NCBI GenBank assembly: GCA_020201435.1
Contig: JAIVGS010000201.1
Span: 1 to 46,506, forward strand
DNA length: 46,506 bases
From: Myxococcales bacterium
GTDB taxonomy: Bacteria > Myxococcota > Myxococcia > Myxococcales > 40CM-4-68-19
Reading direction: 5' to 3'
In this document: piece after piece, positions 22,854 through 46,506 of the stretch
Position numbering within the stretch: position 1 is the stretch's first letter
Layout of the letters: each line of letters begins with the position of its first letter
Made by a program: the position numbers and the translations under genes
Notes under the pieces: generated by a model
Databases searched by the model: none
What the model saw: the letters and a program-made list of their open reading frames with translations, nothing else
Told to the model about the DNA's origin: nothing

Positions 22854-23401
22854 TCGCCGCGATCATCCTCGCGCTGGCGCTCGCGCAGAGCACCAAGGAA
22901 GGAAAGAGCGACACCGCGCAGCGGGGGTCGGCGCCGACGCCGGCCGATCGCGGCAGCACGGCCGAGAGCTCGCAGCGCGGATCGATCGGCTCGACCGCCG
23001 GCGGCGAGGAGCGGACGTCGGTGCCGGGGGCGGGCATCGAGTCCGGCGACGCCAACGGCATGGCCGGCGGCCGCACCGACGAAGGCCCGGGCGGCGGCAC
23101 GGGAATCCGCAACTCGACTACGCCGCAGGCTGAGAGGGCCCGGGCGAATGCGAACGACCAGGCCCGCGGCAAGAACAAGCGCGGCGAGTTCCTGCGCCCG
23201 GCGGATTCACCTCCGCAGATGAACGTGAACCCGAAGCCGATCGGTTCGGGCGCGCCGCAGATTCCGCCCGATCAACAGCCGCAGGCCCGTGGAAAGCGGT
23301 ACGGCCGAACGCCGTCGCACGGCCGCGCGAAGGGCAAGGACAAGGACGCCGGCGGCGCCGCCGCGCAGGGGTCGGCGGGCAAAGGCAAGCATCTAAAGTA
23401 G
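22850..23401 (+). CDS. Exported Gly/Ala-rich disordered protein
   Basis: 183-aa protein beginning at GTG 22850 (GGAGG upstream; GTGA overlap) with signal peptide VIAAIILALALAQS. The mature part is predicted disordered: Gly, Ser, Arg, Pro and Asn dominate (SAPTPADRGSTAESSQRGS, GGGTGIRNSTT, PPQMNVNPKPIGSGAP). The C-terminus is a Lys/Gly/Ala-rich tail (RAKGKDKDAGGAAAQGSAGK). No family recognised. Its 3' end overlaps the exonuclease gene on the other strand by 9 bp. Together with the previous gene it forms a two-gene exported-protein unit. Confidence 0.65.
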   Translation: MIAAIILALALAQSTKEGKSDTAQRGSAPTPADRGSTAESSQRGSIGSTAGGEERTSVPGAGIESGDANGMAGGRTDEGPGGGTGIRNSTTPQAERARANANDQARGKNKRGEFLRPADSPPQMNVNPKPIGSGAPQIPPDQQPQARGKRYGRTPSHGRAKGKDKDAGGAAAQGSAGKGKHLK

Positions 23402-27851: not shown

Positions 27852-28787
27852 GTGACCCTCCTTCTCGCACTCCTCTCGACGGTGATCTGGCGCGGCGACT
27901 ATGAGACCGGCGACCTCTCCCAGTGGAGCCGCGTCGATGGCCTGGCGAGCATGCTGACGGTCGCCAACTCGCCCGTTCACCAGGGCAACTACGCCCTGCG
28001 GGTCGAGCTGCACCAGGGGCAGGTTTCCTCCAGCGGCACCCGCAACGAGCTCGAGCTGGGGGGTTACCCGTTCGTCGAGGGCGACGAGTACTGGTACGCG
28101 TGGAGCACCTACTTCCCGACGACCTTCCCCTCGAACAACACCTGGCAGGTCTTCACCCAGTGGCACCACAGCGGCTGCTGCGGCTCGCCGCCGCTCGAGT
28201 TCGACGTCATCGGCGAGAGCATCGAGATCAACCACAACGGCTCCCAGATGCTCTGGAAGGCGCCGTTGGTTCGCGGCGTCTGGCACGACTTCGTCATCCA
28301 CATCAAGTGGTCGGTGAACGGCTGGATCGAGCTCTGGTACGACGGCCAGAAGGCGCTGGACCAGACCTCGGTTCCGACCATCAACGCCGGCCAGTACAAC
28401 TACCTGAAGCAGGGTCTCTACTGGAACGCGTCGATCACCAGCGTCGGCGTCCTGTACCACGACCGGACGATCATCGGGACCACGATGGCGGACGTCGCAC
28501 CCGAGCTCTTGCCGCCGCCTCCCGACGCGGGAACGCCCGACGCGGGGCCGGCCGACGCAGGCTCGCCCGACCCCGACGCGGGTGTCATCGTCGATCCGGC
28601 CCCGCCGCCGGCACCCGACCCCGCTCCGGTCGCGCAGACCCCGCCGAGCGCGCCGCCGGCGACGCCGGTCGCGAAGACCACCGTCGGCTTTCCCAGCGGC
28701 GGCTGCTCGCACACCGGCCGCGGCACGATGATCGCCTTCGCCGTCCTCATGCTGCTGGTCTTCGCCGTCCGCCGGCGCCGGAGTTGA
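27852..28787 (+). CDS. Secreted polysaccharide-lyase-like protein with MYXO-CTERM tail
   Basis: 311-aa exported protein. A short signal peptide (GTG start, MTLLLALLSTVIW) precedes a jelly-roll domain of about 200 residues resembling the heparin-lyase-I/family 20 polysaccharide lyases: GDYETGDLSQWSRVD, YALRVELHQGQV, GTRNELEL, GDEYWYAWSTYFP, WHDFVIHIKWS, GWIELWYDGQ. An Asp/Pro/Ala linker (PDAGTPDAGPADAGSPDPDAG) leads to a MYXO-CTERM-like tail (GGCSHTGRG, helix, RRRRS), implying surface anchoring. Substrate unknown, perhaps uronate-containing glycan. Catalytic residues cannot be assigned with certainty by eye. Confidence 0.82.
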   Translation: MTLLLALLSTVIWRGDYETGDLSQWSRVDGLASMLTVANSPVHQGNYALRVELHQGQVSSSGTRNELELGGYPFVEGDEYWYAWSTYFPTTFPSNNTWQVFTQWHHSGCCGSPPLEFDVIGESIEINHNGSQMLWKAPLVRGVWHDFVIHIKWSVNGWIELWYDGQKALDQTSVPTINAGQYNYLKQGLYWNASITSVGVLYHDRTIIGTTMADVAPELLPPPPDAGTPDAGPADAGSPDPDAGVIVDPAPPPAPDPAPVAQTPPSAPPATPVAKTTVGFPSGGCSHTGRGTMIAFAVLMLLVFAVRRRRS

Positions 28788-32010: not shown

Positions 32011-33234
32011 ATGAAAATCGTCGTCATCGGGTCCGGCGCTCGCGAGCACGCAATCGTCAAATCGCTTCGACGCTTTGGCGACCGCGAGATCGTCGTCATC
32101 CCCGGAAACGCAGGGATCGCGCGTGAAGCGCGCTGCGTCCCGGCGCAGCCCTCGCTCGCCGACGCCGCGCTCGCGGAAAAACCGGACCTCGTCGTCGTCG
32201 GCCCGGAGCAACCGTTGGCGGACGGGTTTGCCGATCGCATGGCTGCCGAGAAAGTGCCGTGTTTCGGACCGGTTGCGGCAGCGGCGCGGATCGAGGCCTC
32301 GAAAGCGTTTGCGAAAGAAATCATGCTCGCCGCGGGCGTACCGACGGCGGAAGCGGCTGTCTTCGACGACCCGGCGGCTGCGCGCGCATACGCGACCGAC
32401 CGCGGCGCGTGCGTGGTCAAGCTCGACGGCCTCGCCGCCGGAAAGGGCGTGATCGTCGCCGATGACGCCGCGCAGGCCGCGCAGGCGGTCGAAGAGCTGT
32501 GGCGGCCTGGGACGAAGCTTTTGATCGAGGAACGGCTGCAAGGGCGCGAGATCTCGATCATCGCCATCTGCGACGGCAAGTCCGTCCTTCCGCTGCCCCC
32601 GGCCCGCGATCACAAGCGGCTGCGTGATCACGACCAGGGCCCGAACACCGGCGGCATGGGCGCGGTCTGCCCGCCCTCCGACGCGACGGCGGAATTGATC
32701 GAAACGACCGTCAAGACGGTCCTCGAACCGACCGTGCGTGAGCTGGCGGAACGTGGAACGCCCTTCGTCGGCGCGCTCTACGCGGGCCTGATGTTGACCC
32801 CGAAAGGCCCTCGCGTCCTCGAGTTCAACTGCCGCCTCGGCGATCCCGAAGCGCAGGCCATCCTGATCAAGCTCCGCAGCGATCCCCTCCCGCTCTTCCT
32901 CGCCGCCACAAACGGGCGAATTCAGGGACAAAAACCCGTCTGGGATGAGCGGACCGCAGTCGCGGTCGTCCTTGCCGCCCATGGCTATCCCGGGCCGCCG
33001 CGCGCCCTCGATCCGATCGAAATCGAGGTCGAGGAGAGCGACGACCTGTGGGTCCTCCACGCCGGCACGCGCATCGATGACGGCAAGCTCGTCACCAGCG
33101 GCGGCCGCGTTCTCACCATCGCCGCCCTCGGTGCCGGCCCGGAACAGGCTCGCGCCCGCGCGTATGCGGCCGCGGCCCAGGTGAGATTCGCCGGCATGCA
33201 GAGCCGCTCGGACATCGCGGCGGCCGAAGGATGA
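32011..33234 (+). CDS. purD: Phosphoribosylamine-glycine ligase
   Basis: ATP-grasp enzyme that makes GAR, step two of purine synthesis. 407 aa. MKIVVIGSGAREHAIVKSL is the family start. Further motifs are VVVGPEQPLADG, VVKLDGLAAGKGV (ATP-binding Lys), DHKRLRDHDQGPNTGGMGAV, and VLEFNCRLGDPEAQAIL, the metal-binding segment. It starts 1 bp after purH, and its stop overlaps the permease gene by 4 bp (ATGA). Confidence 0.98.
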   Translation: MKIVVIGSGAREHAIVKSLRRFGDREIVVIPGNAGIAREARCVPAQPSLADAALAEKPDLVVVGPEQPLADGFADRMAAEKVPCFGPVAAAARIEASKAFAKEIMLAAGVPTAEAAVFDDPAAARAYATDRGACVVKLDGLAAGKGVIVADDAAQAAQAVEELWRPGTKLLIEERLQGREISIIAICDGKSVLPLPPARDHKRLRDHDQGPNTGGMGAVCPPSDATAELIETTVKTVLEPTVRELAERGTPFVGALYAGLMLTPKGPRVLEFNCRLGDPEAQAILIKLRSDPLPLFLAATNGRIQGQKPVWDERTAVAVVLAAHGYPGPPRALDPIEIEVEESDDLWVLHAGTRIDDGKLVTSGGRVLTIAALGAGPEQARARAYAAAAQVRFAGMQSRSDIAAAEG

Positions 33235-34358
33235 CCTCGGGCCGTCAGGCCATCGCCGGCCAGATCGACCGACTCCTGATGACGGAAGTCGGCCGGCTCT
33301 TCGCCGCGACGCTGGGCGGCGTGGTCCTCATCTACCTGGTGATCGATTTCGCCGACCGCGCCCATGGTTTTCACGGAAAAGCATGGGGCAAGGCGGTGCT
33401 CGAGCTGTACGCGAACAAGGCCGCGGTCGTCTCGTACCAGCTCGCCCCGGCGGCGCTGATCATCGCCGCCGCGCTGCTCGTCACCATCCTCTCCCGGCGC
33501 GGCGAGTTGATCGCCCTCTACGGCGTCGGAATCCGCCCGCTCCGTCTCGCGCTGCCGATCGCGGCTTTCGCCGCGCTGCTCGGCTCCGCCCTCTTCTGGC
33601 TGGGTGAGAAAGTCGTCGTCCGCGCCGACGCGCGCGCGGAAGAGATCCAGATCCAGCGCTTCAACCGCTGGGGCGATTGGGCAACTTACCACACCGGCTC
33701 TTCCTGGCTGCGCGGCCGGGAAGGGCGCATCTATCACCTGGGACCCTTCACCGACGGCGGGTGGGAGCCGGCGACGGTGCTCGAGATCGCGCCTCCGTTC
33801 CGGCTCGCCCGCCGCATCGACGCGCGCCGGATCGAGCCGCTCGCCAGCGTCAAAGGTGGCGAAAAATGGGCACTTTTCGACGCGACCGAAACGACCTACG
33901 CGCTCTCCGGCGCGCCGGGCGGGACCATCCAGGAACGCCGCGCCGACGTGATGCAGCTCGTCCTCCCCGAGACCCCGGCAGACCTCGAGCTGCGCAGCGG
34001 GCGGCCCTCGCAGCTCCCGTGGAGGCAGCTGCGCGAGCAGGTCCGCCGTCGCGAAGCGGCCGGCCAGAGGGCTCGGGAGTACGAGCTGGCGCTGGCCGAG
34101 CGGGCGGCGCAGCCGGTGCAGGTCGTTCCCGCCGCGCTCGCCTCGATGGGCCTGGCCCTCGGCATGCTTCGCCCGCGCCGCCGGATGCCGCTGGCGGGCG
34201 CCGTCGCCGTCGGCATCGCCCTGACGATGGTGCTTTGGGCGGCTTCGGTGATCGCGCACGCGGTCTCGCTCGGCGGCGGCCTTTCGCCCTGGACGGCCGG
34301 CGCCGTCCCGGGCCTCGTCAGCACGCTGATCGCCGTGGCCGCCTTCCGACGCGGCTAG
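33231..34358 (+). CDS. LptF/LptG-family permease
   Basis: 375-aa membrane protein of the YjgP/YjgQ family, whose members form the LPS-extracting LptB2FG transporter. Layout fits: an N-terminal helix (LFAATLGGVVLIYLVIDF), two helices at about 70-130 (SYQLAPAALIIAAALLVTIL, RLALPIAAFAALLGSALFWL), a central periplasmic beta-jellyroll (about 135-255), and two or three C-terminal helices. RRGELIALYGVGIRPLRL is the conserved cytoplasmic loop. I cannot tell LptF from LptG. It is coupled to purD by ATGA and precedes the polysaccharide locus, whose products may go to LPS. Confidence 0.88.
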   Translation: MTSGRQAIAGQIDRLLMTEVGRLFAATLGGVVLIYLVIDFADRAHGFHGKAWGKAVLELYANKAAVVSYQLAPAALIIAAALLVTILSRRGELIALYGVGIRPLRLALPIAAFAALLGSALFWLGEKVVVRADARAEEIQIQRFNRWGDWATYHTGSSWLRGREGRIYHLGPFTDGGWEPATVLEIAPPFRLARRIDARRIEPLASVKGGEKWALFDATETTYALSGAPGGTIQERRADVMQLVLPETPADLELRSGRPSQLPWRQLREQVRRREAAGQRAREYELALAERAAQPVQVVPAALASMGLALGMLRPRRRMPLAGAVAVGIALTMVLWAASVIAHAVSLGGGLSPWTAGAVPGLVSTLIAVAAFRRG

Positions 34359-34405: not shown

Positions 34406-35116
34406 ATGAAAGGCGTCATCCTGGCCGGCGGAACGGGCTCACGCCTCTACCCGCTCACCAAGGTCACCAACAAGCACCTGCTGCCGGTCGGCCACGAGCC
34501 GATGATCTTCCACCCGGTGAAGAAGCTGACCGAGGCCGGGATCGACGAGATCTGCATCGTCACCGGCATCGAGCACATGGGCGACGTCGTCAACCTGCTC
34601 GGTTCGGGCAAGGATTTCGGCTGCCGCTTCACCTACAAGGTCCAGGACGAGGCCGGCGGCATCGCGCAGGCGCTCGGCCTCGCGCGCAACTTCGCCGGGA
34701 GTGACCTGGTCTGCGTCATCCTCGGCGACAACATCTTCGAGGACTCGATCGCGCCGTACGTCGCCGCCTTCCGGGAGCAGGGGCGCGGCGCACGGCTGCT
34801 GCTCAAGCAGGTGCACGATCCGCAGCGGTACGGTGTCGCCGAGGTCGACGGATCGAAAGTCGTCCGCATCGTCGAGAAGCCGAAGGTGCCCAAGAGCGAT
34901 CTGGCGGTGGTCGGGATCTACTTCTACGACTCGGAAGTCTTCGACATCATTGTCACTTTGAAGCCGAGCGCGCGCGGGGAGCTGGAGATCACCGACGTCA
35001 ACAATCACTACCTGCGCGCCGGCATGCTGCAGTGCGACCGGATCCAGGGATGGTGGACCGACGCCGGCACGTTCGAGTCGCTCGCCACCGCGAACGAGCT
35101 GGTGAGGCCGAGGTGA
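34406..35116 (+). CDS. rfbA: Glucose-1-phosphate thymidylyltransferase
   Basis: Makes dTDP-glucose from glucose-1-phosphate and dTTP. 236 aa, the shorter form lacking the C-terminal extension of enterobacterial RmlA. GVILAGGTGSRLYPLTKVTN is the nucleotide-binding signature. Other family motifs are LPVGHEPMIFHPV, ILGDNIFED, VEKPKVPKSDLAVVGIYFYD, and GWWTDAGTFESL. The stop overlaps the rfbB GTG (GTGA). An upstream AAAAGG-rich stretch may be its ribosome site. This is the first gene of the surface-glycan locus. Confidence 0.95.
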   Translation: MKGVILAGGTGSRLYPLTKVTNKHLLPVGHEPMIFHPVKKLTEAGIDEICIVTGIEHMGDVVNLLGSGKDFGCRFTYKVQDEAGGIAQALGLARNFAGSDLVCVILGDNIFEDSIAPYVAAFREQGRGARLLLKQVHDPQRYGVAEVDGSKVVRIVEKPKVPKSDLAVVGIYFYDSEVFDIIVTLKPSARGELEITDVNNHYLRAGMLQCDRIQGWWTDAGTFESLATANELVRPR

Positions 35117-36102
35117 ACCTGCTGGTCACCGGCGGCGCGGGATTCATCGGGTCGAATTTCGTCCGCTTCCTGCGGCGCGAGCGGCCCGACTGGAAGGTCG
35201 TCAACCTCGACAAGCTGACGTACGCCGGCAACGCCGAGTCGCTGCCGGACGCGCGCGACTTCGTCCATGGCGACATCGCCGACGCGAAGCTCGTCGAGCG
35301 CGTGATGCGGGGGGTCGACGCGGTGGTCAACCTCGCCGCCGAGAGCCACGTCGACCGCAGCATCCTCGGGCCGGGCGTGTTCGTCGAAACCAACGTCGGC
35401 GGCACCCAGGTGCTGCTCGACGGCGCCCGCCAGGCGGGGGTGAAGCGGTTCGTCCAGGTCTCGACCGACGAGGTCTACGGCTCGCTGGGGCCGACCGGAA
35501 AGTTCAACGAAAACAGCCCCTTGAGACCCTCCAGCCCGTACTCGGCGTCGAAGGCGGCGGCCGACCTGCTCGCCCTTTCGTACGCGCACACCTTCGGCAT
35601 GGACGTGGTCGTCACCCGCTGCTCGAACAACTACGGGCCGTACCAGTTCCCCGAAAAGCTCATCCCCTTGATGATCGCCAACGCGCTCGAGGGCCGCCGG
35701 TTGCCCGTCTACGGCGACGGACTCCAAATCCGCGACTGGATCCACGTCGAGGACCACTGCCGGGCGCTCCTCGCCGCGCTCGAGAAAAGCCGCGCCGGCG
35801 AGGTCTACAACGTCGGCAGCGACAACGAGTGGCCGAACCTTCGTATCGTCTCGCGATTGCTCGAGATTCTGGGCAAGCCGGCGGAGCTGATCGAGCACGT
35901 GAAAGACCGGCCGGGCCACGACCGCCGCTACGCCATCGACGCCTCGAAAGCGCGCGCCGAGCTCGGCTGGGCGCCGCGAATCGACTTCTCCGACGGCCTC
36001 GTCGCGACCGTCGACTGGTACGTGAAGAACCGCGGCTGGTGGGAGCGCGTCCGGACCGGCGAGTACCGCACGTATTACGAGCGCAACTACGGAGCGCGAT
36101 GA
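35113..36102 (+). CDS. rfbB: dTDP-glucose 4,6-dehydratase
   Basis: NAD-dependent extended SDR that converts dTDP-glucose to dTDP-4-keto-6-deoxyglucose. 329 aa from GTG 35113. LLVTGGAGFIGSNFVRFLR (NAD loop), NLAAESHVDRSI, VSTDEVYGSL, YSASKAAADL (catalytic Tyr and Lys), and TRCSNNYGPYQFPEKLIP are all family hallmarks. GTGA overlap with rfbA and ATGA overlap with rfbD show a coupled operon. Confidence 0.97.
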   Translation: MNLLVTGGAGFIGSNFVRFLRRERPDWKVVNLDKLTYAGNAESLPDARDFVHGDIADAKLVERVMRGVDAVVNLAAESHVDRSILGPGVFVETNVGGTQVLLDGARQAGVKRFVQVSTDEVYGSLGPTGKFNENSPLRPSSPYSASKAAADLLALSYAHTFGMDVVVTRCSNNYGPYQFPEKLIPLMIANALEGRRLPVYGDGLQIRDWIHVEDHCRALLAALEKSRAGEVYNVGSDNEWPNLRIVSRLLEILGKPAELIEHVKDRPGHDRRYAIDASKARAELGWAPRIDFSDGLVATVDWYVKNRGWWERVRTGEYRTYYERNYGAR

Positions 36103-36749
36103 CCACGGTGGTGACCGGCGCACACGGCCTCGTCGGCAGCCGCGTCGTGGCGCGGCTGAAGGGCGAACGCGTGATCGCGGTCGGGCGAGAGGAGCTCGAT
36201 CTGCGGCAGCCCGAGCGGATCGCCGCCTTCCTCGCCGACGTCCGGCCGGACGGAATCATCCATTGCGGCGCGATGACCGACGTCGACGCCTGCGAGAAGG
36301 ACCCCGAGACGGCATGGGCGGTCAATGCGGCGGCGGTCGCGGCGCTGGCAAAAGGCCGGGCGCGGCTGACGGCGCTCTCGACCGACTACGTCTTCGACGG
36401 CGTCAAGGGCGACTATTCCGAGGAGGACGCGCCGAATCCCCAGAGCGCGTACGCCCGCAGCAAGCTCGCCGGCGAGCTGGCCGCGCTCTCGCTGTCCCGC
36501 GATCGCGCGGTGTGTCGGGTGGCGCTGGTCTACAGCGGGTACCCGGCGGCGAAGCGGACGTTCGCATCCGCCGCGCTGGAGGCGCTGCGGAAGGGAGAGC
36601 CGGTCCGGGCGTTCGCCGATCAGATCGGCTCGCCGACGCTGGCCGACAACGCCGCGGAGATGGTGATCGCCGTCCACCGCTCAGGCGAGCAGGGCGTCTT
36701 CCACTGCGGCGGCGCCACCCAAGTCTCGCGGGTCGATTTCGCGAGCTGA
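36099..36749 (+). CDS. rfbD: dTDP-4-dehydrorhamnose reductase, short C-terminus
   Basis: Final step of dTDP-L-rhamnose synthesis. The N-terminal part is intact (VTGAHGLVGSRVVARL, LSTDYVFDGVKGDYSEED, YARSKLAGELAAL, the active-site YxxxK). The frame stops after 216 codons at SRVDFAS, where typical members (about 280-300 aa) still have roughly 70 residues of substrate-binding region. The stop overlaps the next gene as CTGA. It may be a functional short form, a decayed gene, or the scar of a deletion that also removed the wzm start. rfbC (epimerase) is not in the window. Confidence 0.8.
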   Translation: MTTVVTGAHGLVGSRVVARLKGERVIAVGREELDLRQPERIAAFLADVRPDGIIHCGAMTDVDACEKDPETAWAVNAAAVAALAKGRARLTALSTDYVFDGVKGDYSEEDAPNPQSAYARSKLAGELAALSLSRDRAVCRVALVYSGYPAAKRTFASAALEALRKGEPVRAFADQIGSPTLADNAAEMVIAVHRSGEQGVFHCGGATQVSRVDFAS

Positions 36750-37518
36750 TCGAGTACCGCCAGCTGATCGCGCTGCTCGTCGTCCGCGAGCTGAAGGTCC
36801 GCTACAAGCGCAGCGTCTTCGGCCTGTTGTGGACGATGCTCAACCCGCTCCTGCTGATGATCGTCTACACCGTGGTCTTCACCACCATCATGCCGGTCGC
36901 GCAGCGCAACTTCTCGATCTTCCTGCTCGCCGCGCTCCTGCCCTGGCTTTTCTTCAGCACCGCGGTCCTGCAGGGCCTCAACTCGATCCTCGGCAACCAG
37001 GAGCTGATCCGCAAGGTGCGCGTCCCGCAGGCGGTCTTTCCGCTTTCGGTGGTCGGGTCCAACCTGGTCAACTTCACCCTCTCGATGTTGCCGCTCTTCC
37101 TGTTGATGGCCGCGCTCAAGCAGCGGTTTTCGACGGCCCTTTTCTTCGTCCCGGTGGGCATGATCCTGCTGACCATCTTCACCAGCGGCGTGACCCTTCT
37201 GCTCGCGACGTTCACCGTCTTTTTCCGCGACGTGAGGCACCTCGCCGAGGTGCTGCTGCAGATGATGATGTACCTCTCGCCGGTGCTCTACGATCTCAAC
37301 ATGCTGGGGGCGAACAAGAACTGGTGGTTCCGCTTCTTCCAGTGGTTTCTCGCCGTGAATCCAATCACTTACCTGCTCGCGCTGATCCGCGAGCCGGTCT
37401 ACTACGCCCGTGTTCCCGATGCCGCCACGATCGCGATTGCGACCGGATCCTCGTTCGTCGCGCTCGCCGTCGGTTACAAGGTCTTCCAGCGCCTCGCGCC
37501 CCGCCACATCCATTACCT

Positions 37519-37522
<4 letters not shown>
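36746..37522 (+). CDS. wzm: ABC-2 polysaccharide export permease (Wzm type)
   Basis: 258-aa permease of O-antigen and capsule ABC exporters. It begins IEYRQLIALLVVRELKVRYK, the usual amphipathic Wzm N-terminus. SVFGLLWTMLNPLLLMIVYT starts the helix set; six helices are seen, ending near FVALAVGYKVFQRLAP. No ATG, GTG or TTG occurs in frame between the upstream reading and this segment. CTG 36746 overlaps the rfbD TGA as CTGA, the geometry used by other overlaps here (GTGA at 35113, 40341, 43744), so I take CTG as the start. Its ATGA overlap with wzt completes the exporter. Confidence 0.85.
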
Positions 37523-38289
<767 letters not shown>

Positions 38290-38322: not shown

Positions 38323-39090
38323 ATGGTTTACGCCTTCTTCGTCGGCCACTGGCTGCTGAGCGTGCTCTTCCAGAGCGTCTTCCAGCACCGCTACGCGGCG
38401 CACAAGATGTACACGATGGGCCCGCGCACCGAGCGGGTCGTACATTTCCTTGCCTGGCTGGTGCAGGGAAGCTCGTTCCTGGATCCGAGGGGTTACGCGA
38501 TCCTGCACCGCGAGCATCACGCCTTCAGCGACACCGAGCGCGATCCGCACACTCCCTGGCTGCACCAGAACGCGTTCTCGATGATGTGGAAGACGAAGAA
38601 GCGCTATTCGGACCTGGCGCACCGGCGGATCGAGCCGGAGGCTCGGTTCGACGGCGATGTGCCGTCGTGGCCGTGGCTGGAGAGCTTCGCCGACGCCTGG
38701 CCGACGCGGATCGCGTTCGGGACCGCGTATTCACTCTTCTATTTCGCGTTCGCCACCCACTGGTGGCAGCTCGCGCTCATGCTCCCGTTCCACTTCGTGA
38801 TGGGCCCCGTCCACGGCGCGATCGTCAACTGGTGTGGGCACAAGTACGGCTATGTGAACTTCGACAACGGCGACAAGAGCCGGAACACGTTGCCGTTCGA
38901 CTTCGTCACCATGGGCGAGCTGTTCCAGAACAACCACCACAAGTACGGGGCCAGCCCGGACTTCGCGGCGCGGTGGTTCGAGATCGATCCCGGCTGGCAG
39001 GTTCTGCGCGTCCTGGCCTGGGCGCGGATCGTGACCGTCCGGACCCCACAGCGCGCGGTATACCCGGAAGCGCTGCCCAAGGCCGCGTAA
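38323..39090 (+). CDS. Membrane fatty-acid desaturase
   Basis: 255-aa acyl desaturase. The three His boxes are HRYAAH, HREHH, and NNHHKYG, with GDKSRNTLPFDFVTMGELFQ between. Hydrophobic spans surround them. The family introduces a double bond into an acyl chain using O2; the position is not readable. It lies between the exporter and the DprE1-like oxidase, so it may act on a membrane lipid linked to glycan assembly, but a general lipid role is equally possible. First in-frame ATG with an AGAGAGG site just upstream. Confidence 0.88.
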   Translation: MVYAFFVGHWLLSVLFQSVFQHRYAAHKMYTMGPRTERVVHFLAWLVQGSSFLDPRGYAILHREHHAFSDTERDPHTPWLHQNAFSMMWKTKKRYSDLAHRRIEPEARFDGDVPSWPWLESFADAWPTRIAFGTAYSLFYFAFATHWWQLALMLPFHFVMGPVHGAIVNWCGHKYGYVNFDNGDKSRNTLPFDFVTMGELFQNNHHKYGASPDFAARWFEIDPGWQVLRVLAWARIVTVRTPQRAVYPEALPKAA

Positions 39091-39108: not shown

Positions 39109-40344
39109 GTGACCGAGTCCTGGGGACGCTACCCCGCGGCTGCGCACGTCGCCGAATTCCCGCTGGCGTGGCGATCCGAGGCGCGGATTCCGCCGGTGCG
39201 GCCGGTGCTCGCGTACGGGCGGGGGCGCAGCTACGGCGACTCCTGCCTGAACGACGGCGGGGCGCTCTTGCGCACCTCCGGCCTCGATCGGTTCATCTCG
39301 TTCGCCGGCGGCGTCGTCCGCTGCGAAGCGGGCGTCACGCTCGGCGAAATCCTCGAGTTCGCCGTCCCGCGCGGGTACTTCCTGCCGGTCGTCCCGGGCA
39401 CCAAGCACGTCTCGATCGGCGGCGCGATCGCCAACGACATCCACGGGAAGAACCACCACCGGGCCGGCACGTTCGGACGGCACGTGCGCCGGCTCGAGCT
39501 GCTCCGCTCGGACGGCTCCCGAAAAGAGCTGACGCCGGGTGACGAGTTGTTCGCCGCGACCGTCGGCGGGCTCGGCCTGACCGGGCTGATCACCTGGGCC
39601 GAGATCGCGCTGCGCGCCGTCCCCGGGCCCGCGGTGCGGAGCGACGCGGTGAAATTCGCCGGGCTCGACGAGTTCTTCGCGATCTCCGACGAGAGCGACG
39701 CGAAGTCCGAATACACGGTCGCGTGGCTGGACGTGCTCTCGCGCGAGCATCGCGGCATCTTCTATCGCGGCGATCACGCCGCCGGAACCGTGAAGGCCCC
39801 TCGCGCGCGCGTCACCGTGCCGATCGATCTGCGGCTGGTGAACGGCTTCACCGTCCGCGCGTTCAACGCCGCGTACTACCTCGTGCAGCGGACCGGCTCG
39901 CGCCTCGGCCACTACGACCCGTTCTTCTTTCCGCTCGACGCCGTCGAGCGGTGGAACCGGCTCTACGGAAAGCGCGGCTTCCTTCAGTTCCAGTGCGTCG
40001 TGCCCGGACCCGACTCGCTGAAAACGCTTCTCGACGAGATCGTACGACTCGGCGCCGGCTCGCCGATGACGGTGCTGAAGAAGTTCGGCGACCTGAAATC
40101 GCCGGGGATGCTCTCGTTCCCGCGGCCTGGCTTTACCGTCGCGATCGACATTTCCTCGACGGAGATCGCGGCGTTCACGAGGCTCGAAGAGGTCGCGGTG
40201 CAGTCGGGCGGCGCGCTCTATCCCGCCAAGGACGCGCGGATGTCCGCGGCCACGTTCGCGAAGAGCTATCCGCGGCTCGACGAGTTCCGGCGCCTCCTCG
40301 ACCCCGCGTTCTCCTCGTCGTTCTGGCGGCGGGTCGCTCCGTGA
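39109..40344 (+). CDS. FAD-dependent oxidase of the DprE1 type
   Basis: 411-aa FAD-binding PCMH-fold oxidoreductase. YGRGRSYGDSCLNDGG, GVTLGEILEF, VVPGTKHVSIGGAIANDIHG and FATVGGLGLTG-like (AATVGGLGLTGLITWAEI) form the flavin domain as in decaprenylphosphoryl-ribose 2'-oxidase. The C-terminal domain has FFFPLDAVERWN and FQCVVPGP. GTG start 39109. Its GTGA overlap with the SDR gene, followed directly by a UbiA-type prenyltransferase, reproduces the DprE1-DprE2-UbiA trio. The inferred reaction is oxidation of polyprenyl-phosphoryl-beta-D-ribose at C2'. Confidence 0.85.
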   Translation: MTESWGRYPAAAHVAEFPLAWRSEARIPPVRPVLAYGRGRSYGDSCLNDGGALLRTSGLDRFISFAGGVVRCEAGVTLGEILEFAVPRGYFLPVVPGTKHVSIGGAIANDIHGKNHHRAGTFGRHVRRLELLRSDGSRKELTPGDELFAATVGGLGLTGLITWAEIALRAVPGPAVRSDAVKFAGLDEFFAISDESDAKSEYTVAWLDVLSREHRGIFYRGDHAAGTVKAPRARVTVPIDLRLVNGFTVRAFNAAYYLVQRTGSRLGHYDPFFFPLDAVERWNRLYGKRGFLQFQCVVPGPDSLKTLLDEIVRLGAGSPMTVLKKFGDLKSPGMLSFPRPGFTVAIDISSTEIAAFTRLEEVAVQSGGALYPAKDARMSAATFAKSYPRLDEFRRLLDPAFSSSFWRRVAP

Positions 40345-41000
40345 AAGTGCTCGTCCTCGGCGCGACCTCCGCGATCGCGCAGGCCGCCGCCCGCATCTGG
40401 GCGGCACGCGGAGACGACCTCGTCCTGGTCGCGCGGTCGCCGGAAAAGCTGCAGGCGGTGGCCGACGACTTGCGCACGCGCGGCGGCAAGGTCGAGACGA
40501 TGGTTCACGACCTGAACGATCCGGTGTCGTACCCTCCCGCCGACGTGGTCCTGCTCGCGCACGGCGTCCTGCACGGTCCCGACGTGCTGCAGACGAACCT
40601 GGTCGGGCCGATCGCGCTGCTCGAGAAAATCGCCGAGGTCCTGCTGCCGGGCGCGTGCATCGCGGCGCTCTCCTCGGTGTCCGGCGATCGCGGCCGGGCG
40701 AAGAACGCCGTCTACGGCGCGTCGAAGGCCGGCCTCGACGCGTATCTCTCCGCGCTGCGGCAGCGGCTGTTCCACAAAGGCGTCCGCGTGGTGACTTTGA
40801 AGCCGGGCTTCGTCGACACACCGATGACGGCGCAGATGCAAAAGACCCCCTTGTTCAGCTCGCCCGCGGCGGTCGGCCGCGGCATCGTCCGCGCCATCGA
40901 CGGCCGCAGCGACGTCGTTTACTTGCCCTGGTACTGGCGCTTCATCATGCTGATCGTCCGCATGATCCCCGAGCCGATCTTCAAAAGGCTGTCGTTCTGA
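40341..41000 (+). CDS. Short-chain dehydrogenase of the DprE2 type
   Basis: 219-aa SDR. VKVLVLGATSAIAQAAARIW has the nucleotide-binding glycine motif in the DprE2 style. SSVSGDRGRAKNAVYGASKA carries the catalytic Ser and YxxxK. PGFVDTPMT and a C-terminal hydrophobic helix (YWRFIMLIVRMIPEPIF) suggest membrane association. With the preceding oxidase it would convert decaprenylphosphoryl-ribose to the arabinose epimer. GTGA overlap upstream; it abuts the UbiA gene without a gap. Confidence 0.85.
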   Translation: MKVLVLGATSAIAQAAARIWAARGDDLVLVARSPEKLQAVADDLRTRGGKVETMVHDLNDPVSYPPADVVLLAHGVLHGPDVLQTNLVGPIALLEKIAEVLLPGACIAALSSVSGDRGRAKNAVYGASKAGLDAYLSALRQRLFHKGVRVVTLKPGFVDTPMTAQMQKTPLFSSPAAVGRGIVRAIDGRSDVVYLPWYWRFIMLIVRMIPEPIFKRLSF

Positions 41001-41864
41001 ATGGACCTGCTCGAGGCGATGCGGCCGCGGCAGTGGAGCAAGAACGTCTTCGTCTTCGCCGGCATCGTCTTCGCCGGCCGGCTGTTCGAGGCGCGCGCGG
41101 AACTGCGCGTGATCGCGGTCTTTTTCGTCTTCTGCGCGGCGGCGAGCTCGGTCTACCTGGCGAACGACGTCGCCGATCGGGCGTCCGACGCGCATCACCC
41201 GGAGAAGAAGCTGCGCGCGATCGCGTCGGGCCGGGTGAGCCCGCGCGCTGCGAGCGTGAGCTCGGCCGTGCTCGCGATCGCCGCGCTCGCCGGCGCGGCG
41301 CTGCTCAACCTCGGGACTCTCGCGATCATGGTCGCGTATCTCGGCTCGACGCTCGCCTACAGCCTCGGCCTCAAGCGCGTCTTCCTGCTCGACGTGATGA
41401 TCGTCGCCCTCGGATTCGTCCTTCGGGCGGCGGTCGGCGCGGCGGTCATCGACGCCGAGATCTCGCCCTGGCTCCTGGTCTGCTCGTTCCTGCTCGCGCT
41501 CTTTCTCGCTTTGGGAAAGCGGCGCGCCGAGCTGGTGCTGCTCGGCGAAGCGGCGTCGAACCACCGGCCCGCGCTCGGCGAGTACAGCCTGCCGCTGGTG
41601 GACAGCTGCCTGACCGCCTTGTCAGGCGCGGCGATCGTCTCGTACGCGTTGTATACGCAGTCGCCCCGGACAGTGGAACACTTCGGAACCACGAGTCTTT
41701 TGTACACGGTGCCGTTCGTGATCTACGCGCTGTTCCGCTACCAGCACCACGTCATGCGGCTCGATGCCGGCGGAGATCCCGGCAGCCTGCTCGTCCAGGA
41801 CCGCGGCCTGTGGTTGTCGCTGCTCGGGTGGGCGATCACCGCCGCGGTCGTGATCTACCGATGA
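41001..41864 (+). CDS. UbiA-family prenyltransferase (DPPR synthase-like)
   Basis: 287-aa polytopic protein. RPRQWSKNVFVFAGIVFAGR and the Asp-rich NDVADRASDAHHPEKKLRAI resemble decaprenyl-phosphate phosphoribosyltransferase more than quinone-pathway UbiA. GLKRVFLLDVMIVALGFVLR is the second Asp-containing loop region. About eight helices. It would attach phosphoribose to polyprenyl phosphate, feeding the two preceding gene products. Its end overlaps by 29 bp the oppositely oriented glycosyltransferase gene. Confidence 0.88.
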   Translation: MDLLEAMRPRQWSKNVFVFAGIVFAGRLFEARAELRVIAVFFVFCAAASSVYLANDVADRASDAHHPEKKLRAIASGRVSPRAASVSSAVLAIAALAGAALLNLGTLAIMVAYLGSTLAYSLGLKRVFLLDVMIVALGFVLRAAVGAAVIDAEISPWLLVCSFLLALFLALGKRRAELVLLGEAASNHRPALGEYSLPLVDSCLTALSGAAIVSYALYTQSPRTVEHFGTTSLLYTVPFVIYALFRYQHHVMRLDAGGDPGSLLVQDRGLWLSLLGWAITAAVVIYR

Positions 41865-42732
41865 ACGCGCGGACCGCGTCGAGCGCGCCGGCGCCAGCCG
41901 CTTTCAGCTCGGCGAGCGCGAGCGAGGGTCGCGCCCGGATCAATTCCACGGGCGCCTTGAAAACCGCGCGATAGGCGACGGTCAGCGGGACCAGCGCGGC
42001 TGCCTTCAGGACCGGTTGATGCATCGCGAGCGTGCGCAGATGTCCCCGGCCGAGAAGGTAGCGCTGCCGGGGCGATCCCGCACCGACGGTCGCGCCGAAG
42101 CGGTGGCGCGCGACGGCGTCGCGGACGTACCAGCAGTGGAAGCCGGCCTCCGCGGCGCGCAGCGAGAGGTCGACGTCCTCGTAGTACGCGAAATACGCGG
42201 GGTCGAAGAGGCCGACGGTCCGCAGCATCGACGCGCGGAGCAGCGAGGCGCCGCCGCTCACGCCCCCGACCGGACCGTCTTCCGTGGCGAGCTTCGAACG
42301 CTCGACGCCGAAGTCGCGGTCGCGAGCCCGGCCGAACCGGTCGATGACGAGCCCCGTCGAGTTGACGCGTTCCTCGTCCCGAAAGAGTAAAGTTCCTGTA
42401 AACAGGCCGCATTCCGGATGCTCGCGGGCCGCTTTCAAGAGCCCGGACAGCCAGCCCGATTCCACCTCGACGTCGTTGTTCACCAACGCGACGAACTCGA
42501 CGCCCTGGTCGAGCGCACGCCGCATCGCCTGGTTGTTGGCGCGGCCATAGCCGAGATTCGCATCGAGGTTCAGAAGCTCCACCTGCGGAAAGCCGGCGAC
42601 GACCTCCGCCGTCCGGTCGATCGAGCCGTTGTCGACCACGACCACGTGCGGGCGCGGTACCTGGTGTTCAAGGGCGTTGAGACAGTCGGGCAACAGGTGG
42701 GCGCCGTTCCAGGTGACGACGATCGCGTGCAC
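41836..42732 (-). CDS. Family 2 glycosyltransferase (rhamnosyltransferase-like)
   Basis: 298-aa GT2 from GTG 42732: VHAIVVTWNGAHLLPDCLNA, VVVDNGSIDRTAEVV, NANLGYG-like (DANLGYGRANNQAM), and VNNDVEVESGWL (DxD variant). GGASLLRASMLRTVGLFDPA and YYEDVDLSLR are the acceptor-side motifs found in WbbL-type rhamnosyltransferases. A C-terminal amphipathic region may bind membrane. It is the only minus-strand gene in the locus and is divergent from the GT4 at 42767 with 34 bp between the starts. Confidence 0.85.
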   Translation of the reverse strand: MHAIVVTWNGAHLLPDCLNALEHQVPRPHVVVVDNGSIDRTAEVVAGFPQVELLNLDANLGYGRANNQAMRRALDQGVEFVALVNNDVEVESGWLSGLLKAAREHPECGLFTGTLLFRDEERVNSTGLVIDRFGRARDRDFGVERSKLATEDGPVGGVSGGASLLRASMLRTVGLFDPAYFAYYEDVDLSLRAAEAGFHCWYVRDAVARHRFGATVGAGSPRQRYLLGRGHLRTLAMHQPVLKAAALVPLTVAYRAVFKAPVELIRARPSLALAELKAAGAGALDAVRAFIGRSRPRR

Positions 42733-42766
42733 CGAGGGCGACTCTTTTGCTACACCCTCGGGCTCC

Positions 42767-43747
42767 TTGATCGACGTCGGAATCAACGCTGCTCCTCTCG
42801 CCGCGGCCCGCACCGGCGTCGGGCGGTACATCGCCGGACTGCTCGACGCGCTCGCCGCCCACGCCCAAGACGGCATCAACCCGCGCCCGCTCTTCCTGCC
42901 CGGCGCTCCGGCGCGCGGCTTGCGGCCGCTGGTCAAGCGGCTTCCCTTCGCCTACTTCCTCGCCGAAACCGCGCGCGCCGCGGCGCTCGAGCGCGAGCGG
43001 CGGCGCGGGCTGACCGTGTATCACGAGACGAACCACGCCGCGCCGCGCTTTCGCGGGCCGGTCGTGCTGACCGTGCACGATCTCTCGACCGTGCTCCATC
43101 CGGAGACGCAGGAGCGGGCGCGCGCGCGGCATTTCGCCAATGCCCTTCGGAAGCGGGCCCGCCTGGCGACGCGGGTGATCGTGCCGACGCAGGCGATCGC
43201 GCGCGAGGTCTGCGAGCACCTCGACGTGAAGCCGGAACGGGTCCGCGCCATCCACCACGGGGTCGGCTCGCATTTCTCGCCCGGACCTCAGAAGCGCCTG
43301 AATTTCGTGTTGTTTTCCGGCGGGCGCGACCCACGCAAGGGCCTCGATACCCTGCTCGCCGCGATGCCGCCGGGCGCCGACCTGGTGCAGGTCGGGCCCG
43401 GATCCCCGCTTGGCTTCGTCGCGGACGACGAGCTGGTCGATCTCTACCGGACCTGCGCGCTGTTCGTCCTGCCATCGTTGTACGAAGGGTTCGGCTTTCC
43501 CCTGATCGAGGCGATGGCGTGCGGCGCGCCCTGCATCGCCAGCGACGACCCGGCGCTGGTCGAAGTCTCGGGCGGCGCGGCGCTCCACTTTCCACGTGGC
43601 GACGCCAGCGCGCTGCGTCGGCTGATCGAGAAAGTCCTCGGCGATCCCGGCGATCTCGCGCAGAAAGGGATCGACCGTGCGCGTGGTTTCCGCTGGGACG
43701 AGTGCGCCGCGAAGCATGCCGAGGTGTACCGCGAGGCGGCCGCGTGA
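42767..43747 (+). CDS. Family 4 glycosyltransferase
   Basis: 326-aa GT-B enzyme. From TTG 42767: IDVGINAAPLAAARTGVGRY, VVLTVHDLSTVLHPE, VIVPTQAIAREVCEHLDVKP, FVLFSGGRDPRKGLDTLL, and LPSLYEGFGFPLIEAMACG with the EX7E element. TTG is chosen because the frame further upstream is antisense to the GT2 gene and lacks family motifs. GTGA overlap with the next gene. A retaining sugar transfer onto the repeat unit or adaptor is expected. Confidence 0.88.
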   Translation: MIDVGINAAPLAAARTGVGRYIAGLLDALAAHAQDGINPRPLFLPGAPARGLRPLVKRLPFAYFLAETARAAALERERRRGLTVYHETNHAAPRFRGPVVLTVHDLSTVLHPETQERARARHFANALRKRARLATRVIVPTQAIAREVCEHLDVKPERVRAIHHGVGSHFSPGPQKRLNFVLFSGGRDPRKGLDTLLAAMPPGADLVQVGPGSPLGFVADDELVDLYRTCALFVLPSLYEGFGFPLIEAMACGAPCIASDDPALVEVSGGAALHFPRGDASALRRLIEKVLGDPGDLAQKGIDRARGFRWDECAAKHAEVYREAAA

Positions 43748-44829
43748 ACGTCGCGCTCGTCCACGACTGGCTCACGGGCCTGCGCGGCGGCGAGCGCGTG
43801 CTCGAGCAGCTCTGTCTTTTGTACCCGGACGCCGACATCTTCACGCTGGTCCACGCGCCGGGCTCGGCCGGCCCGATCATCGAGCGCCACCGGATCACGC
43901 CCAGCTTTCTCGACCGGCTGCCGCGAAAATATTACCGGAACTACCTCCCGCTCTTTCCGCTCGCGATCGAGAGCTTCGACCTCGCGGCGTACGACCTGGT
44001 CATCTCGACCAGCCACGCCGTCGCCAAGGGCGCGAAAGGGCCGCTGCACGTCTCGTACATCCACACGCCGATGCGGTACGTGTGGGACCAGTTCGACGCC
44101 TACTTCGGCCCTGGCCGCGCCGGCTTCCTGACCCGGACGGCGGCGCGGGCGGTCGCGCCGTGGCTGAGAAACTGGGACGTGCGCTCGACCGAACGGGTCC
44201 ACGGGCTGATCGCCAACTCACGTTTCGTCGCCGATCGAATCCGGCGCTGCTGGTCGCGCGAGGTCGACGCGGTCGTCCATCCCCCGGTCGACACCGCGAG
44301 ATTCGCGCCGTCCGCGGAAGGCCCCGACGCGTACGCGTTGATCGTCTCCGCCCTGGTCCCTTACAAGCGCGTCGAGCTCGCAGTCAGCGCTTTTTCGCGA
44401 TTGAAACGGCCGCTCTGGATCGCGGGCGACGGCCCGGAGCTCGGCAAGCTGCAAGCGATGGCCGGACCGACCGTCCGTTTTCTCGGCCCGGTCGGGCACG
44501 ACGAGCTCCCCGGCGTCTACGCGCGCGCGAAGTTCTTCGTCCTGCCCGGCGAGGAGGACTTCGGCATCGCCCCGGTCGAAGCCCAGGCTGCCGGCCGGCC
44601 GGTCCTCGCTCTCGGCCGCGGTGGCGCGCTCGAAACGGTGATCGAAAACGAGACCGGCGTCTTCTTTCCCGAGCCGACCGTGGCCTCGCTCCTCGACGGA
44701 ATCGCCGCGATCGACAAGCTGCAGACCGATCCGACCCGCATCCGAGCCCACGCCGAGCGGTTCGACGCGCGCCGATTCGGTCCCGAAATCCAGCGCGAAA
44801 TCGAGCGCATCCGTCTGAGGAAGCGCTAA
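43744..44829 (+). CDS. Family 4 glycosyltransferase
   Basis: 361-aa GT-B enzyme: VALVHDWLTGLRGGERVLEQ, YIHTPMRYVWDQFDAYFG, ANSRFVADRIRRCW, YALIVSALVPYKRVELAVSA, FFVLPGEEDFGIAPVEAQAA. The HTPMRY and YKRVELAV segments are typical of WcaL/mannosyltransferase-like proteins of exopolysaccharide clusters. Starts at GTG 43744 (GTGA). It is followed after 10 bp by the initiating sugar transferase. Confidence 0.9.
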   Translation: MNVALVHDWLTGLRGGERVLEQLCLLYPDADIFTLVHAPGSAGPIIERHRITPSFLDRLPRKYYRNYLPLFPLAIESFDLAAYDLVISTSHAVAKGAKGPLHVSYIHTPMRYVWDQFDAYFGPGRAGFLTRTAARAVAPWLRNWDVRSTERVHGLIANSRFVADRIRRCWSREVDAVVHPPVDTARFAPSAEGPDAYALIVSALVPYKRVELAVSAFSRLKRPLWIAGDGPELGKLQAMAGPTVRFLGPVGHDELPGVYARAKFFVLPGEEDFGIAPVEAQAAGRPVLALGRGGALETVIENETGVFFPEPTVASLLDGIAAIDKLQTDPTRIRAHAERFDARRFGPEIQREIERIRLRKR

Positions 44830-44839
44830 TATTGCGTCG

Positions 44840-46240
44840 ATGTTCAAGCGTCACCACCAGCTCTTCACCGCCCTGCGCGTGCTGCTCGACCTCTGCTTCG
44901 TCGCGGCCGCGTTCGGCGCGGCGTACTCGCTGCGATTCGGGTCGCCGAAGACCTGGCCGTACCCCGAGCTGCCGCTGCCGCGCGAGACGGTGATCGTCGC
45001 GCTCCTCGCGCTCGTGATCTGGCCGCTCAGCTTCCGCGCGGTCGGTCTTTATCGACCCCAGCGCCAGAACACGCCGCTCGACGAGATGTTCGGCGTCTTC
45101 AAGGCGACGGTCGTCGCCGGCCTGCTGCTGGTGGCGGTGACGTACTTCGTGCGGGAGGCGCGCTACTCGCGCGGCATGCTGCTGCTCTTCAGCACGCTCG
45201 CCTTCCTCTCCGTTTCGCTCGAGCGCGTCTTTTTCAAGGAAGTCCTGCAGGCGCTGCGGCGGCGCGGGTACAACCTGCGCTACATCCTCGTCCTCGGCGC
45301 GGGCCGGCTGGCGCGACAGGTGCTCGAGCAGGTCGACCTGCACAAGGAGCTCGGCTTTCGTCCGGTCGGGTGTTTGAGCGTCACCCGCAAACGGGTCGGG
45401 ACCAGCGTCGCGGGAACCGAAGTGATCGGCACCGTCCGCGACCTGCCCGGAGTCCTCGCGCAGAAGACCGTCGATCAGGTGCTGGTCGCGCTGCCGTCGC
45501 GGTCGATGCATCACCTGCCGCGGATCATGGAGGTCTGCGCGGACACGACCGTCGACGTGAAGCTGGTGCCCGACGTCTACCAGTACGCGACGCTGTTCGG
45601 CGGACTCGAGGAGTTCGGCGGGCTGCCGATCGTCAATCTTCAAAGCACCGGGATGCTCGGCATCAACGCTTTCGCCAAGCGCATCTTCGACGTGATTTTC
45701 TCGAGTATTTTCCTGATCCTTCTGAGTCCGCTGCTGGTCGTGCTCACGGTGCTGGTGAAGGCGACGAGCCCGGGTCCGGTGCTGTTTACGCAGGAGCGCG
45801 TGGGGCTCGACGGGCGGCCGTTCCAGATGCTCAAGTTCCGCACCATGCGCATCGACGCGGAGGCGAACGGGCCGCAGTTCGCGCAGGCGCAGGATCCGCG
45901 CGCGACGCCGATCGGCGGCTGGCTGCGGCGCACCTCGATCGACGAGCTGCCGCAGCTGTGGAACGTCTTCCTCGGCGACATGAGCCTGGTCGGGCCGCGG
46001 CCGGAGCGGCCGGTGTTCATCGAGCGGTTCCGGCGGCGCATTCCGCGCTACCAGCTGCGGCACATGGTGAAAGCCGGGATGACCGGGTGGGCGCAGATCC
46101 ACGGCCTGCGCGGCAACACCAGTATCCAGAAGCGGGTCGAGTACGACCTGTACTACATCGAGCACTGGTCGCTGCTGCTCGACCTCCGCATCCTCGCGCG
46201 GACGGTCGCGTTCGGATTCCTCTCGCGGAACGCGTACTGA
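44840..46240 (+). CDS. Initiating polyprenyl-phosphate sugar-1-phosphate transferase
   Basis: 466-aa bacterial sugar transferase of the WcaJ/WbaP type. Four N-terminal helices, a soluble Rossmann-like middle domain (ILVLGAGRLARQVLEQV), a further helix (IFDVIFSSIFLILLSPLLVV), then the catalytic domain: GPVLFTQERVGLDGRPFQML, RRTSIDELPQLWNVFLGDMS, LVGPRPERP, KAGMTGWAQIHG. It transfers hexose-1-phosphate to undecaprenyl phosphate and so begins assembly of the unit that the neighbouring glycosyltransferases extend. Its TGATG overlap couples it to the next gene. Confidence 0.96.
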   Translation: MFKRHHQLFTALRVLLDLCFVAAAFGAAYSLRFGSPKTWPYPELPLPRETVIVALLALVIWPLSFRAVGLYRPQRQNTPLDEMFGVFKATVVAGLLLVAVTYFVREARYSRGMLLLFSTLAFLSVSLERVFFKEVLQALRRRGYNLRYILVLGAGRLARQVLEQVDLHKELGFRPVGCLSVTRKRVGTSVAGTEVIGTVRDLPGVLAQKTVDQVLVALPSRSMHHLPRIMEVCADTTVDVKLVPDVYQYATLFGGLEEFGGLPIVNLQSTGMLGINAFAKRIFDVIFSSIFLILLSPLLVVLTVLVKATSPGPVLFTQERVGLDGRPFQMLKFRTMRIDAEANGPQFAQAQDPRATPIGGWLRRTSIDELPQLWNVFLGDMSLVGPRPERPVFIERFRRRIPRYQLRHMVKAGMTGWAQIHGLRGNTSIQKRVEYDLYYIEHWSLLLDLRILARTVAFGFLSRNAY

Positions 46241-46506
46241 TGATCGCCGTCGACAAGCTCCTGGCCGCCCTGAAGGGCCATCGGGTCGGCGCGATCCTGA
46301 ATCCGACCAGCGTGATGCCCGACCTGCGCCACCTGGCCGACGTGCTCCACGGGGCAGGCGTGCTCGGCGCGCTGTTCGGGCCGGAGCACGGCGTCCGCGG
46401 GGACGTGCAGTACCTCGAGGAGGTCGCCGACGCGCGCGACGCACGCACCGGCGTGCCGGTTCATTCGCTGTATGGAAAGGACTTTCAAAGTCTCACCCCG
46501 CGGGCC
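46240..46506 (+). CDS. NamZ/DUF1343-type protein, N-terminal part
   Basis: The window ends within this gene after 89 codons. VGAILNPTSVMPDLRHLADV, ALFGPEHGVRGDVQ, and TGVPVHSLYGK match the start of the DUF1343 family, which includes the exo-N-acetylmuramidase NamZ of cell-wall recycling. No signal peptide is seen in this start; many relatives have one. ATG overlaps the preceding stop by one base. Confidence 0.85.
   Translation, partial: MIAVDKLLAALKGHRVGAILNPTSVMPDLRHLADVLHGAGVLGALFGPEHGVRGDVQYLEEVADARDARTGVPVHSLYGKDFQSLTPRA

Follow-up and report, generated by a model that had tools for sequence, protein, structure and literature searches.

Contig JAIVGS010000201.1, from a myxobacterial draft genome, carries at 39109-41864 three consecutive genes for a DprE1-like flavin adenine dinucleotide (FAD) oxidase, a DprE2-like short-chain dehydrogenase/reductase (SDR) and a solo UbiA-type polyprenyl-phosphate phosphoribosyltransferase, which from their sequences are probably a functional, well-conserved arabinose-donor cassette within a glycan locus. 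We consider it fairly likely that the trio makes a polyprenyl-phosphate-D-arabinofuranose donor; given those donor steps, the polysaccharide exported by the adjoining Wzm/Wzt transporter is a little likelier than not to be the acceptor. The window analysed is the whole contig (C162, 46506 bases) and its genome (G000) is a 4.76 Mb draft in 363 contigs; G-numbers denote the genomes compared and L-numbers the loci. Gram-negative DprE1/DprE2 pentofuranose systems are already published (Kelly et al. 2024, PMC11127046), and the window is a further example with local twists. What distinguishes it is the solo UbiA, a run of desaturase, oxidase and SDR genes that separates Wzt from UbiA in a single genus of the family, and an SDR shorter than any other aligned. 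The myxobacterial case would join a growing picture in which D-arabinofuranose (D-Araf) donors, best known from mycobacteria, occur also in Gram-negative glycan loci. The original prediction, made from the DNA alone, had implied that a trio of mycobacterial type was out of its usual setting; that framing falls in view of the published systems and of the at least 580 relatives of the oxidase found in GTDB (tblastn, E 1e-3), the best 80 of which were kept for locus comparison.

Enzyme families of the trio

All three open reading frames (ORFs) are intact, lie on the forward strand and are 58-92% identical to their relatives in the genus. The oxidase (39109-40344, 411 amino acids, aa) and the SDR (40341-41000, 219 aa), both with GTG starts, overlap by 4 bases, and UbiA (41001-41864, 287 aa) starts directly after the SDR stop at 41000. 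The layout is operon-like, and the genes are consecutive and partly overlapping, as originally noted; SDR and UbiA abut without overlap. At its 3' end UbiA overlaps a convergent GT2 glycosyltransferase gene (41836-42786, reverse strand) by 29 bases.

The top nine PDB matches of the oxidase are all DprE1 (best E 5.9e-68), the first other enzyme being xylitol oxidase at 1.1e-12, and it scores 326 bits with the NCBIfam DprE1 equivalog NF053785. Judged by sequence, it is a member of the broad DprE1-like family, and of the enzymes whose structures are known DprE1 is the nearest to it; the next-best match to the DprE1 model in its own genome reaches only 50 bits. Across 88 aligned non-mycobacterial rows, the window included (86 distinct sequences; the fragment L097 was left out), His132, Lys134, Gln334, Gln336, Tyr415 and Lys418 (Mycobacterium tuberculosis numbering), to which we assume active-site roles, are kept in every row. 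The M. tuberculosis residue Asn385 is replaced by Thr in 87 of the 88. At the position of Cys387 the window has Ala; the 88 rows together show 85 Ala, 2 Thr, 1 Ser and no Cys. Cys387 is the target of covalent inhibitors, and the natural resistance of M. avium to benzothiazinone is attributed to an Ala at this position (PMC3206020). The suggestion that the window's oxidase is a target for DprE1 inhibitors is weakened by the Ala replacement and, for covalent compounds, probably wrong; the enzyme may be sensitive to non-covalent ones. The lack of Cys387 from the aligned non-mycobacterial sequences would, as a prediction, bear on the selectivity to be expected of covalent DprE1 drugs.

Outside the genus, oxidases among the best 80 of at least 580 relatives are 47-60% identical to that of the window. 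In a tree of 54 rows, for which 46 of the fetched relatives were picked by hand, the outgroup rows are saturated and do not form a single clade, some probably being wrong frames, and only the near relatives are usable; the mycobacterial rows join a distant protein of genome G008 on long branches.

The best PDB match of the SDR is DprE2 (3.7e-19), amid many generic SDRs, and its score with PRK07102 is 228.5 bits. The catalytic Ser, Tyr and Lys are all kept in the window, and in the alignment, which without three fragments has 82 rows, 81 of them distinct, Ser and Tyr are found in all 82 and Lys in 81. At 219 residues the window's protein is the shortest row, followed by L119 at 225, the relatives having been trimmed to the match so that their lengths are lower bounds. 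Approximately 25 residues are gone between the cofactor and active-site segments, a loss partly common to the nearest relative, L119. The AlphaFold model is a complete SDR fold (predicted local distance difference test score, 95.9), and a fold search with it returned, among the matches listed, 50 rows that are SDRs at Z 25-27; DprE2 does not appear in that listing, to which no weight is given. With its fold, its Ser-Tyr-Lys set and a DprE1-like oxidase adjoining, the protein is a member of the broad DprE2-like family.

UbiA exceeds the curated cut-off for decaprenyl-phosphate phosphoribosyltransferases (NF008977, 250.5 against 234 bits), and its genome holds one match to the UbiA model. At E 0.001 it has no PDB relatives other than two sequences of decaprenyl-phosphate phosphoribosyltransferase (8j8j, 1e-34), and the motif NDxxDxxxDxxHPxK is common to the window protein and 8j8j. 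The families that had been proposed for the three proteins are supported. A Pfam scan finds no HAD domain in the 287 residues of UbiA, which is thus not a HAD-UbiA of the Citrobacter ORF15 type. The UbiA frames that accompany relatives of the oxidase are mostly long (at least 440 residues in 53 of 59), and all six long proteins scanned carry UbiA plus HAD, the HAD of L028 lying below cut-off. A quick-method tree of 65 rows (six under 200 residues were dropped, L062 among them) groups the window with 8j8j (support 86), on long branches and outside the clade of long UbiA proteins (support 91). Since short UbiA frames also occur within that clade, in L044 and L045, shortness alone is not unique to the window.

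A solo UbiA adjoins the oxidase, at 10-38 bases, also in G026, G057 and G089, which are genomes of other families. Beside the solo UbiA of G057 and of G089 stands a separate HAD gene; at L201 (11890-12591) and L202 (11445-12128) such a gene, for a HAD phosphatase, lies immediately ahead of solo UbiA and oxidase, in effect an unfused HAD-UbiA. A homologue of the G089 HAD gene occurs in the window's own genome (41%, contig C88) and in 10 of the 12 family genomes; it was rejected as evidence for a partner, HAD proteins being too common.

Linkage and local evolution

Of the 80 oxidase loci, 75 have a relative of the SDR nearby and 59 one of UbiA, some contigs being too short to tell. A survey of 96 genomes of the class, each at least 90% complete (oxidase at E 1e-40, UbiA at E 1e-20), found both genes in 73 genomes, only the oxidase in 1, only UbiA in 10 and neither in 12. 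The two genes lie within 2 kb of each other in 61 of the 73 genomes with both, and within 100 bases in 58; when 11 genomes with a distant best match (40-43% identity) are set aside, 63 with a close oxidase are left, and 61 of these have UbiA no more than 2 kb away. These genomes are related to each other and the counts are not a probability; the linkage of oxidase and UbiA is beyond chance.

At L012, L022, L024, L069, L081 and L085 an oxidase-SDR pair stands without a UbiA in its fetched flanks, which is as far as the search went; the records bear the titles Dictyobacter, Ktedonobacter, Ktedonobacteraceae, Thermosporothrix and Thermogemmatispora. The UbiA-DprE1-DprE2 clusters of Myxococcaceae, Xanthomonas and others (for example L018 and L025) have the same oxidase and SDR families as the window; there UbiA precedes the oxidase and is usually of the long form, whereas the window has the order oxidase-SDR-UbiA with a solo UbiA outside their clade.

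The family comprises 12 genomes, seven of them in the genus of the window (g1), and the neighbourhood PurH-PurD-LptF-Rml-Wzm-Wzt-UbiA-glycosyltransferase-phosphoglycosyltransferase is kept across it wherever contigs show it. In the sister genera (L150-L152) UbiA stands in the Rml/Wzm/Wzt locus and the oxidase is not there: in L150 UbiA begins about 10 bases past Wzt, L151 has the identical order, and in L152 one other gene separates Wzt from UbiA and relatives of the downstream glycosyltransferase genes do not follow. The contig of L149 ends about 1.5 kb upstream of UbiA, where the gene predicted is not Wzt, and the downstream half of that locus is conserved. Because UbiA occupies this locus in sister genera even without the oxidase, it is tied to the Rml/Wzm/Wzt glycan. 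Desaturase, oxidase and SDR lie between Wzt and UbiA in the window and in G002, G003, G005 and G006 (the contig end of G004 cuts inside the SDR, and G001 gave no match); among the family loci compared, the oxidase-SDR pair lies within the Rml/Wzm/Wzt locus only in genus g1. The desaturase is present in L119, L120, L121, L122 and L123, and no relative of it lies between Wzt and UbiA in L150, L151 or L152. The genus comparison suggests how the pathway was assembled, with the synthase resident in the glycan locus and the epimerase pair moving in.

In G008, UbiA is 61% identical and the only oxidase-SDR pair is distant (oxidase 32%, SDR 34%); this pair, at L153 6387-8722 (G008:C24), is in the reversed order SDR-oxidase, and no close oxidase occurs in that genome. 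A 69% relative of the desaturase lies in G009 about 15 kb from the oxidase-SDR pair of that genome.

Proposed pathway, acceptor and alternatives

The mycobacterial decaprenyl-phosphoryl-arabinose pathway, which we take to consist of Rv3806c (UbiA), Rv3790 (DprE1) and Rv3791 (DprE2), has the same three enzyme types, and the window shares with it the active-site residues of DprE1 and the aspartate motif of UbiA. The window differs from it in having Ala for Cys387 and Thr for Asn385, in scores below the DprE1 and DprE2 cut-offs, in a genome with no Emb-type transferase, and in a Wzt nearer to PDB entry 6amx than to 9qfx. Its UbiA is without a fused phosphatase, as is stated for the mycobacterial enzyme (PMC11127046).

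We propose that UbiA would transfer 5-phosphoribose from phosphoribosyl pyrophosphate to a polyprenyl phosphate, probably undecaprenyl phosphate, and that a phosphatase encoded elsewhere would remove the 5-phosphate. The oxidase would convert the 2-hydroxyl of the lipid-linked ribose to a ketone, which the SDR, using NAD(P)H, would reduce with inverted configuration to give arabinose. Once flipped, the donor would be consumed outside the membrane by a GT-C enzyme encoded off this contig, the acceptor most likely being the Wzm/Wzt-exported polysaccharide. The predicted D-arabinofuranose, now in some surface glycan, is retained in this form, as an expectation drawn from the gene families. A fuller picture, tentative and as a whole somewhat doubtful, is of a rhamnose-containing polysaccharide exported by Wzm/Wzt and arabinosylated outside the membrane by an arabinosyltransferase of an unrecognised GT-C family, as an independent counterpart to the assembly of mycobacterial arabinogalactan; to a solo phosphoribosyltransferase fixed in the locus, a single genus would have added an oxidase-reductase pair, which stands elsewhere in three genomes of sister genera.

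The Gram-negative three-component pentofuranose systems use DprE1/DprE2 homologues for Araf-containing glycans, and their prototype synthase is encoded alongside Wzm/Wzt in a rhamnose-containing O-antigen locus (Kelly et al., PMC11127046). The window is like them in its UbiA-type synthase, its DprE1/DprE2-type epimerase genes and its setting beside Rml and Wzm/Wzt genes. It is unlike them in that the Citrobacter prototype has UbiA fused to HAD and a Wzt with a carbohydrate-binding module, whereas the window has a solo UbiA and a short Wzt, and the MATE flippase and GT-C that such a system encodes with its synthase are not recognised in the contig. According to the same article, the Pseudomonas synthase, like the mycobacterial one, has no fused phosphatase.

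Several findings weigh against the proposed pathway or its acceptor. The genome is a fragmented draft of an apparently uncultured organism. The oxidase lies below the NF053785 cut-off of 500 bits, as do five oxidases of other loci, four with UbiA nearby (348-379 bits); the SDR lies below both curated cut-offs, 267 bits for PRK07102 and 250 for the DprE2 model NF053786, with which it scores 139, and the SDR of G011 passes the first (293) and not the second (194). RmlD (36099-36749) ends about 65 residues short of the C-terminus of the L120 RmlD and runs straight into Wzm; it looks truncated, by a small deletion or an assembly fault. The oxidase-SDR pair of G009, G010 and G011 lies away from the glycan locus, among unlike genes, and the oxidase of G009 is interrupted and split over two frames (L126 15982-17279, reverse-complement coordinates; G009:C206), which may be real or an assembly fault. 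Nine of the 24 class genomes with an over-cut-off UbiA have no oxidase at E 1e-40, so this type of UbiA may also serve ribose alone. Partner genes are wanting as well: no GT-C, HAD, PAP2, GtrA or MATE family turned up when the window's 47 predicted genes were scanned with Pfam, and the Emb family (PF04602) is absent from the genome.

A crude hydropathy count gives five window genes at least three predicted membrane spans (GT2, LptF/G, Wzm, UbiA and the phosphoglycosyltransferase), which leaves no unexplained many-span protein in the window. The check originally proposed, for a GT-C arabinosyltransferase near the trio, was thus negative by Pfam scans and hydropathy in the window and by the Emb search of the genome. 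The window's one gene of the endonuclease/exonuclease/phosphatase family (23393-24211) looks like a DNA repair nuclease. Elsewhere in the genome there are seven PMT_2 matches, two GtrA and three PAP2 (one PAP2 below cut-off). When 68 many-span neighbours from 42 of the 80 loci were compared with the genome's seven GT-C candidates, two weak matches to the C57 protein (E 2e-5 and 3e-6) and no partner emerged. In G011 a GT-C-like protein lies between LptF and RmlA (L150 3533-4753, reverse-complement coordinates); the PMT_2 protein of the window's genome that is 43% identical to it (G000:C219:11567-12625) was rejected as a general arabinosyltransferase, being in 4 of 12 family genomes and 1 of 7 in the genus.

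These partner searches bear on whether the same donor serves another acceptor, such as a pilin, another protein or a lipid, instead of the Wzm/Wzt polysaccharide. We judge this possible if unlikely; it shares the donor steps with the pathway proposed above, and the odds of the two do not sum to one. It would fit a contig without a recognised GT-C in a genome with seven PMT_2-type candidates elsewhere, and the pair's position away from the glycan locus in G009-G011. It also has a published counterpart in the alpha-1,5-D-Araf homopolymers placed on pilin by TfpW in P. aeruginosa (PMC11841053). That system is, like the window, Gram-negative with a synthase lacking a fused phosphatase, D-Araf being its known product; its acceptor is pilin and its GT-C is TfpW, whereas no GT-C is recognised in the window (PMC11127046, PMC11841053). 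The placement of UbiA, fixed in the Rml/Wzm/Wzt locus of sister genera, and of all three genes there in genus g1, argues instead for the exported polysaccharide.

A second alternative lets UbiA supply lipid-linked ribofuranose for alpha-Ribf side chains, the oxidase-SDR pair acting on another substrate and adjacency being incidental in the genus. The nine genomes with UbiA and no oxidase are consistent with this, as are pairs without UbiA in the fetched flanks at 20 of 80 loci (several on short contigs) and in G009-G011. It is made improbable by the 2 kb linkage in nearly all class genomes with a close oxidase, by the fit of all DprE-pathway steps to one substrate, and by the UbiA orthologue (65-74%) present elsewhere in the G009, G010 and G011 genomes. 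That the pair makes some other sugar on the polyprenyl carrier, a 2-keto sugar or another epimer, is more improbable still: the missed DprE1 and DprE2 equivalog cut-offs, the Thr at N385, the lost Cys387 and the shortened SDR would allow it, set against the invariance of the presumed active-site residues, Lys418 included, and the company that DprE1/DprE2 homologues keep with Araf-containing glycans (PMC11127046). A decayed locus or assembly artefact with a non-functional trio, to which the short RmlD and SDR might point, is very improbable with intact ORFs well matched in the genus, catalytic residues kept and an SDR that models as a complete fold.

A literature search on DprE1 with Myxococcus found nothing on myxobacterial arabinose, and a myxobacterial case may be listed in the supplements of Kelly et al.; in PMC7484181, as excerpted, arabinose is used as an inducer.

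The surrounding glycan locus

Upstream of the trio, and on the same strand, the locus begins with an LptF/LptG lipopolysaccharide-export permease (33231-34358, PF03739). This Gram-negative marker agrees with the original prediction. The genome belongs to the same order as G091, which has its match at coordinates (C158:1613-2914) equal to those of Pyxidicoccus fallax in L017, and a Gram-negative host of the order Myxococcales is well supported. It is followed by an RmlA-like sugar nucleotidyltransferase (34406-35116, PF00483), the deoxythymidine diphosphate (dTDP)-glucose 4,6-dehydratase RmlB (35113-36102; TIGR01181, 455 bits, passing the cut-off of 365) and the RmlD-like dTDP-4-dehydrorhamnose reductase (PF04321; tblastn with the L120 RmlD), a set that suggests dTDP-rhamnose for the Wzm/Wzt-exported polysaccharide.

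The exporter consists of a Wzm-like ATP-binding cassette (ABC) permease (36701-37522, start approximate, the Wzm of L120 aligning from 36701; PF01061) and a Wzt-like ATPase (37519-38289, 256 aa; PF00005). The best PDB matches are 6m96_B for Wzm (2.7e-21) and 6amx for Wzt (2.9e-61), listed there as 'Transport permease protein' and 'ABC transporter', which we take to be the Aquifex O-antigen exporter; the claim of an adjoining O-antigen-type exporter is upheld by them. At 256 aa, Wzt is too short to hold a C-terminal carbohydrate-binding domain. A mycobacterial-like galactan exporter was considered and rejected: such models are the top NCBIfam matches of Wzt and Wzm, yet at 200 of 400 and 76 of 380 bits, and the PDB comparison prefers 6amx over 9qfx (3.5e-51), an entry named RfbE that is presumably mycobacterial. 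Between Wzt and the oxidase lies the fatty-acid-desaturase-like gene (38323-39090, forward strand, PF00487).

Downstream of the trio, the convergent GT2 gene (PF00535) is followed on the forward strand by two GT4 glycosyltransferase genes (42767-43747 and 43744-44829, both PF00534) and by an initiating phosphoglycosyltransferase (44840-46240; Bac_transf, PF02397, and CoA_binding_3, PF13727). A NamZ-type exo-muramidase gene begins after it (46240-46506), as it does in several family loci that reach that far. A polysaccharide lyase (PF14099) is encoded a few kb ahead of the glycan locus, at 27852-28787, and an aromatic amino acid lyase (PF00221, 641 bits) at 75-1646.

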